Assembly: GCA_009886945.1 (NCBI GenBank)
Contig: QXYM01000055.1
Coordinates: 1-48,566, forward strand
Source: Litorivicinus sp.
Lineage (GTDB): Bacteria; Pseudomonadota; Gammaproteobacteria; Pseudomonadales; Litorivicinaceae
DNA: 48,566 nucleotides
Direction of reading: 5' to 3'
How positions within the stretch are numbered: position 1 is the first letter of the stretch; each line of letters starts with the position of its first letter. This document shows, in pieces, positions 16,967 to 21,330 of this stretch. The notes below the pieces were generated by a model. The model had not been told where the DNA came from and did not search any database. It saw only the letters and a program-made list of their open reading frames with translations. The translations under genes and the position numbers were made by a program.

Positions 16967-17842
16967 TTATTCATCCTCATCTTCTGGTGGTTCCTTCTGC
17001 GCACGTGTTCGAAAGTCCACAAACGCATCAATCACCGCCAATAACGCCAACAACAATAAGAGATATGGCGTAAAAAATACCAATGCTGTGTAGAACATGA
17101 TGATGAGTCCTCTCGACTCCCTCATGCCCGTCAGCCCATGCACCAATGCTATGCCGGCAAACATTAACGGCAGCGCACCAACCGGAGAGAACCGGAGCAT
17201 CCACGGATCAATCAAAAATCCAGTGGCTGCCAGGACCAGACATCCGACAGCAAACACAGGCGGAAGAATGACCGCCTCAAACTCGGTTTTAAACCCACCC
17301 GGGTTAAACGCCTGAGCTTGAAGAGCTCGCGCAAATGTCAGTGCGAATATCGCACTCACCATATGCACAAAACTCAGTGCCCCAACAGACAGCGATGCCA
17401 TCCATGCATCCACTGTTGGACCATCCACCCCAAGGGCCGACAGTTGCGCCGGCGCAGCAACCACTTCTTTGATCGCTGCAACCAGACCTTTGAGCGTCTC
17501 TTCATAGAGCGCGCCGACTAAAAACACCAAGGCCAGCGAAATACCAAGTCCTACCATCAGGACCGAAAGCCAACTCAGTGTGCGGTGAAGGACGGCTGCC
17601 AAGACAACTGTAATCACCAAAACCAGCAACATTGCTGAGTCACCGAATCCAAAAGCCATCACCGAAGCGACAAGCAATGGGATCAGGGTCACCAATCGGG
17701 ATTTGTCGAGGCCTCGACGGAGCGCATATAACGCCACCACCGAAGCACCAGCCCATGACAATAAAGGCAAAAACAACAGCCCCGATGCGATCAGCGCTGC
17801 CCGCCACTCAGACGCCATTAAAAAGTGCGCCAGCCGTGCCAT
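16967..17842 (-). CDS. Polytopic membrane protein, DUF2232-like
   Basis: Multiple hydrophobic helices; located between rplI and rpsR in the same orientation. Confidence 0.65.
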   Translation of the reverse strand: MARLAHFLMASEWRAALIASGLLFLPLLSWAGASVVALYALRRGLDKSRLVTLIPLLVASVMAFGFGDSAMLLVLVITVVLAAVLHRTLSWLSVLMVGLGISLALVFLVGALYEETLKGLVAAIKEVVAAPAQLSALGVDGPTVDAWMASLSVGALSFVHMVSAIFALTFARALQAQAFNPGGFKTEFEAVILPPVFAVGCLVLAATGFLIDPWMLRFSPVGALPLMFAGIALVHGLTGMRESRGLIIMFYTALVFFTPYLLLLLALLAVIDAFVDFRTRAQKEPPEDEDE

Positions 17843-18557: not shown

Positions 18558-18601
18558 CTCCTTACGGGTTTCGCCACTCGGCCCATCCGAATGGCAAGGA
18601 G
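18558..18601 (-). promoter_or_regulatory. Putative S6:S18 ribosomal protein leader sequestering the rpsF Shine-Dalgarno
   Basis: Minus strand CTCCTT-GCCATTCGG-ATGGG-CCGAGTGGC-GAAACCCGT-AAGGAG: 6-bp outer stem masks the SD AAGGAG (5 nt from ATG), 9-bp inner stem, asymmetric bulge with CCG; loop GGG can pair with bulge CCC. Confidence 0.75.
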
Positions 18602-18675
18602 ACTGACTGTTAGACAGGCAGTAGGGCGCGGGAGTCTAGACGACCCGGCACCCTATTGCAATCTCTGGCTGATCT

Positions 18676-18942
18676 TTAACTGTCTAAATCGTAGCGATCA
18701 TCGCCGTCTTCATCATCCATTCCACTGGCTGGAATTTTGACATTCCGAGCAGGAACAACTGTCGAGATCGCATGTTTATAAACCATTTGGCTGACAGTGT
18801 TTTTCAGAAGAACGACGAATTGATCGAATGATTCAATTTGACCCTGAAGTTTGATTCCATTGACTAAGAATATCGACACTGGAACGCGCTCCTTGCGCAA
18901 GATATTCAGAAAAGGGTCTTGTAGCGAGTGCCCTTTTGACAT
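18676..18942 (-). CDS. hfq: RNA-binding protein Hfq
   Basis: [64 protein letters not shown]. Confidence 0.97.
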
Positions 18943-18960
18943 AGTTACCTCCCGATAGCG

Positions 18961-19061
18961 GACGGTCGTGGAGCCAATCATCCACTGCGGCTCCTAAAGT
19001 CGGGTGTTTTCACCCACGACGGTCTGTGTATGCGTTTTTGTTGTTAGTCGAGGACAACAAA
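18961..19061 (-). promoter_or_regulatory. Candidate structured hfq 5' leader (three-way junction plus ARN tract)
   Basis: Minus strand GACCGTCGT[GGGTG-AAAA-CACCC]GACTTTA[GGAGCC-N13-GGCTCC]ACGACCGTC, with AACAACAAAAAC upstream (19034-19045). Confidence 0.55.
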
Positions 19062-19076
19062 TGCTGCCCCTGCACA

Positions 19077-21330
<2,254 letters not shown>

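Follow-up and report, generated by a model that had tools for sequence, protein, structure and literature searches.

The hfq gene of Litorivicinus sp., within the 48,566-nt stretch of contig QXYM01000055.1 analyzed here (the window), is preceded by a conserved, structured leader RNA that we are confident is real and specific to the genus. Two features define this leader: a three-way junction (helices P1, P2, and P3) that ends close to the hfq Shine-Dalgarno (SD) sequence; and, farther upstream, a tract of A-R-N (ARN) triplets that is a candidate site for the distal face of Hfq itself. The best explanation, which we advance tentatively, is a genus-specific leader for cis-acting translational control of hfq. 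The likeliest form of that control is feedback by Hfq, relayed through a switch between P1 and an SD-masking hairpin. Hfq governs the activity of most trans-acting small RNAs (sRNAs) in Proteobacteria. To our knowledge, little is known of how its level is set outside Escherichia coli.

A conserved three-way junction upstream of hfq

The hfq gene (18676-18942, minus strand) encodes an 88-residue protein (Pfam PF17209, E 5e-30) and begins with an ATG at 18942; purA (19077-20375, minus strand; Pfam PF00709) lies upstream. A first-pass annotation, made from the window sequence, had described a three-way junction in the 134-nt gap between the two genes, and its helices, the SD sequence GGGAGG (18948-18953, minus strand; read from the sequence), and the ATG were all found where it had placed them. 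The junction occupies 18961-19024 on the minus strand, as judged from the sequence, from pairing counts over 17 distinct leaders, and from RNAalifold. P1 closes it, its arms GACCGTCGT (19024-19016) and ACGACCGTC (18969-18961) forming eight pairs around one C-C mismatch. Within lie the hairpins P2 (GGGTG-AAAA-CACCC, 19002-19015, minus strand) and P3 (GGAGCC-N13-GGCTCC, 18970-18994, minus strand), the latter with an apical GGA.

Folding and covariation checks had been proposed along with the first-pass annotation. Single-sequence folding of the window leader is unimpressive (z score -0.6 for the whole leader, -1.6 for the junction) and is no proof of the structure, so the case for the junction rests on comparison. 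Over the 17 distinct leaders, standard pairs make up 96.9% of cells, compared with 27-42% when one strand is slid, and seven pairs show changes on both sides; in P2, three pairs are so changed. Shuffled controls likewise favor the structure. RNAalifold, run unguided on the leaders, arrives at the same junction and extends P3 inward by further pairs, one varying in step (A-U to U-A). When changes were counted on a purA-based tree, all eight inferred in P3 kept pairing, as did four of six in P2 (12 of 14 for the two helices together). One slid control still kept six of nine changes, an effect of the purine- and pyrimidine-rich composition of the strands. P2 loops vary (GAAA, ATCA, and TTCG), and P2 and J23 are the most variable parts.

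P1 is nearly invariant: its two arms are 94% and 97% conserved (97% for the 3' strand), compared with about 67% for third codon positions in purA and hfq. Support for P1 therefore comes from conservation and position more than from covariation. Changes in P1 comprise one double change (A-U to G-C), a few G-U variants and, in leaders L017 and L019, an extra A-U pair. Thus P2, P3, and the upstream hairpin P0 (below) keep pairing through double changes, but the covariation check barely tested P1. Taken together, its constant position and the helices that covary between species mark this leader, on comparative grounds, as a structured cis-regulatory RNA, P1 alone covarying little.

Of 22 genus genomes, 19 contain a match to a covariance model built from 17 leaders, including all ten of the good ones; the three genus genomes without an element match also lack an hfq match. 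Each genome carries one strong copy. The copies lie directly upstream of hfq, the exception being a G010 contig whose end falls within the leader, past purA, and purA-hfq spacing is 133-140 nt in the genus genomes in which the purA end was read. When 296 genomes of the order were searched, all 11 matches fell within the genus: none of the 285 genomes outside it matched, nor did any of 93 other hfq loci. As anticipated for a new element, Rfam gave no match in the window at the gathering score, and only chance-level matches up to E 10. A second, weak match in one genome (G005:C119) lies inside a coding gene and was rejected; the window's own genome holds no other convincing copy.

In the sister genus g2 (L021, L022, and L032), hfq is located elsewhere, after an apparent transporter gene, and has no such leader. 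The g2 hfq leader carries GCCC...GAGGGC, which might mask its own SD sequence.

The ARN tract and its surroundings

The first-pass annotation had also pointed out four consecutive ARN triplets, AACAACAAAAAC (19034-19045, minus strand), at -103 to -92 relative to the ATG. This tract persists: in a survey of 19 leaders, all have at least three repeats and 14 have four, and the gap between the end of the tract and P1 is 9 nt in 15. Conservation of the tract is 0.85, compared with a third-codon-position value of about 0.67 in the genes on either side. Of all 55-mers from the window, 1.0% contain at least four repeats.

The autoregulation mentioned in the first-pass annotation is borne out for E. 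coli, where Hfq uses its distal face and an (ARN)3 site to repress translation of its own mRNA (PMC6348989). The E. coli site (site B) lies at -20 to +4, over the ribosome-binding site (RBS), and a U stretch lies at -55 (PMC6348989). The resemblance of the Litorivicinus leader to this system (Vecerek 2005; Morita and Aiba 2019, PMC6348989) is plain: it heads the same gene and carries ARN repeats, and its likely purpose is feedback on translation. The differences are equally clear. Here the RBS region, ATCGGGAGGTAACTATG, contains no ARN run, the tract lying instead about 100 nt upstream; a three-way junction and an SD hairpin intervene between tract and gene; and, unlike the E. coli leader with its U stretch around -55 to -50, this one has no U run longer than TTT. 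Elsewhere in the order the E. coli-like arrangement prevails among long tracts: of 79 other leaders, 12 have at least four ARN repeats, and 11 of these 12 tracts overlap the RBS.

Between purA and the tract lies hairpin P0, GGGGCAGC-ATTT-GTTGTCCT (19051-19070, minus strand), just after the purA stop. A hairpin folds at this position in all 19 leaders surveyed, and, counted on the purA-based tree, 18 of 23 inferred changes keep pairing across 11 hand-aligned leaders. P0 has no U-tract and was rejected as an intrinsic terminator. An outer stem, GTGTGC (19077-19072) with GCATAC (19033-19028), may enclose P0 and the ARN tract as one domain (19028-19077, minus strand); it folds in about half of the leaders, and is lacking in L007, L009, L010, and L014. 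A different structure had been suggested to hide or expose the tract, an 8-bp hairpin formed by TTTGTTGT (19061-19054) and ACAACAAA. Both partner and hairpin are present in the window sequence, but the hairpin occurs only in the window's species and its near-twin L002; across the genus it is the conserved P0 that fills this site. The 8-bp hairpin was abandoned as a switch.

Two folds of near-equal computed energy around the SD sequence

The P1 3' strand can pair alternatively with the SD sequence, forming the hairpin ACC.TCCG-CTAT-CGGG.GGT (18947-18966, minus strand). In most species the minimum free energy fold of the 3' part is such an SD hairpin (ACC.UCCG-GUAU-CGGG.GGU) rather than P1. Computed energies for the junction and the SD-hairpin folds are close (-26.4 and -27.0 kcal/mol for the window, -27.8 and -29.4 for L006, -17.7 and -17.8 for L017), differing by at most 2.2 kcal/mol in every leader but that of L014. 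The block that comprises the P1 3' strand and the SD sequence is 97% conserved. The leaders L017 and L019 carry an inserted U whose possible partners are an A in P1 and, in the SD hairpin, the A of GGGAGG. These modeled folds make a P1/SD switch plausible.

An in-frame ATG at 18981 was considered as the start of an N-terminally extended Hfq. This was rejected: the ATG is absent in L008, L011, L013, L015, L016, L018, and L019, and the sequence block lacks variation of the wobble type.

A model for control of hfq

Transcription would be expected to include the element. No convincing promoter was found between P0 and the hfq start, so the element should lie within the hfq mRNA. The best promoter candidates sit in the 3' end of purA, and include a TAGACT hexamer at -142 that resembles the -10 sequence of the conserved rpsF promoter (below). 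On this sequence reading, transcripts probably either continue from purA or begin close to its stop codon.

We consider it probable that the leader acts on hfq translation. The ARN tract and the feedback established for E. coli make Hfq the first candidate for effector, and we give it roughly even odds. In the model, P1 would close first in the nascent RNA, leaving the SD sequence free. At high levels, Hfq would bind the ARN tract by its distal face; from there, 9 nt short of the P1 5' strand, the bound protein would open P1, either sterically or through strand exchange. The released P1 3' strand would then pair with GGGAGG and block initiation. The outcome would be the kind of negative feedback seen in E. 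coli, here exerted from a distant sensor site through an RNA relay. That the P1/SD exchange is the relay is possible, and somewhat less secure than the identity of the effector. Bolder still is the notion of a new class of protein-responsive switch, in which Hfq level is sensed about 100 nt upstream at the ARN tract, the junction flips to the SD-masking hairpin, and one strand is common to the ON and OFF helices; this we regard as doubtful.

Several observations weigh against this model. Covariation in the junction comes from P2 and P3, with almost none in P1. On an R-scape-like phylogenetic null that takes all pairs into account, no pair reaches significance by itself, in a test underpowered at 18 sequences; the best pair reaches E 0.04 within the structure set. 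Likewise the SD hairpin, conserved in sequence, almost never covaries. L014 and L015 have it in broken or weakened form, and L018 has an altered version together with the weakest ARN tract. Computed accessibility of the hfq SD sequence is ordinary among genes of the window. Finally, the relay from ARN tract to P1 is a proposal, and both Hfq binding and the effect of the leader are predictions. Of the original cis-regulatory reading, then, the conserved, structured leader absent from Rfam, with its junction and ARN tract, stands; the ARN-hiding hairpin does not, and Hfq enters as the presumed ligand.

If the model is correct, the same Hfq feedback has been rebuilt with a different RNA device, a distant ARN tract and a junction that may be bistable, in a lineage without an RBS-overlapping ARN site. 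Moreover, the leader offers a direct test system for remodeling of RNA by Hfq at a distance.

Alternative explanations

The main rival, and a serious one, is CsrA/RsmA, our second effector candidate. Here a CsrA dimer would bind the GGA in the P3 loop and the GGA in the SD sequence to repress hfq, the junction serving to present the first site. The P3-loop GGA is present in 15 of 18 leaders and the SD GGA in all 18. The P3 loop context, CA-NNGGA-UG, resembles the CsrA consensus, and is closed by covarying pairs, although the loop is one base longer than that consensus. All 22 genus genomes have csrA, usually in two copies. In E. coli, CsrA is reported to repress hfq at the RBS (Baker 2007, cited in PMC12249760). 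The GGA at the SD sequence is common to both cases, and a second GGA, in a structured apical loop, sets the present leader apart. That second GGA is gone in three species (L008, L013, and L018) in which the structure is kept, and 36% of shuffled loops would be expected to hold a GGA. CsrA moreover leaves the conserved ARN tract and P1 unexplained. As main effector CsrA is unlikely, but the two proteins are not mutually exclusive.

Most genus genomes have two csrA-like genes, and a few have three, despite genome sizes of 1.1-2.2 Mb.

Less probable is that the structure governs transcript fate, with P0 and the junction marking the purA-hfq transcript for processing or stability, or shielding the hfq 5' end. 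The position of P0 directly after the purA stop, its covariation, its missing U-tract, and the lack of a good promoter between P0 and hfq all fit this idea. The strongest conservation, however, falls on the P1 3' strand and the SD sequence, and so points to translation.

A junction that senses some other ligand or condition (a metabolite, an ion, or temperature) would likewise account for the pair of folds, close in computed energy, that expose or cover the SD sequence, and for the highly conserved P1 strands. We think it quite improbable that the leader is such a riboswitch or RNA thermometer. A metabolite aptamer would be expected to recur before several pathway genes or across lineages, whereas this element occurs in one copy per genome, before hfq only, in one genus; the variability of P2 and J23 leaves no obvious conserved pocket; and Rfam offers no counterpart. 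In a thermometer, the balance between the folds that mask and free the SD sequence should respond strongly to temperature, whereas the computed energy difference moves by no more than about 1 kcal/mol between 5 and 37 °C.

Very unlikely, finally, is that the 97% conserved P1 3'/SD block serves a trans partner, either as an sRNA pairing site or as the target of a cis-antisense RNA like Anti-hfq of Legionella (PMC5225317), a comparable case of hfq control by a lineage-specific RNA via the 5' untranslated region: no promoter for such an antisense transcript is apparent here (no sigma-70-like site on the plus strand between 18063 and 20169), and the paired double changes fit an intramolecular fold.

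Neighboring genes and leaders

The window belongs to a 1.7-Mb assembly of 144 contigs (GC 52%). Bacteria of this genus, with their small genomes, are probably marine; together with the placement in family and order, this points to the OM252/Litoricola group of marine Gammaproteobacteria (compare PMC8269220). Its minus-strand genes include serB, hisZ, purA, hfq, rpsF, rpsR, and rplI, among others; the names serB, rpsR, and rplI were taken from translations. Between rpsR and rplI, a 291-residue membrane-like protein without a Pfam match is encoded at 16967-17842 (minus strand).

The next gene after hfq, rpsF, invites another comparison: like the S6:S18 leader of rpsF (PMC4647458), the hfq leader is a structured element near the RBS of a gene for an RNA-binding protein. 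The rpsF spacer in the window has a separate conserved hairpin, to which the hfq junction is unrelated in sequence. In this rpsF leader (18558-18601, minus strand), an invariant CTCCTT can pair with the rpsF SD sequence (AAGGAG); a strongly covarying stem, GCCATTCGG/CCGAGTGGC, lies inside this pairing, and an invariant AAACCC follows. The leader is probably of the S6:S18 type, although Rfam gave no match. Between hfq and rpsF (18633-18661, minus strand) lies a promoter-like sequence, TTGCAA-N17-TAGACT, followed by GCGCCC. It is kept in nearly all genus members, with an altered -10 sequence in L011, and suggests that rpsF-rpsR-rplI have their own transcription start.
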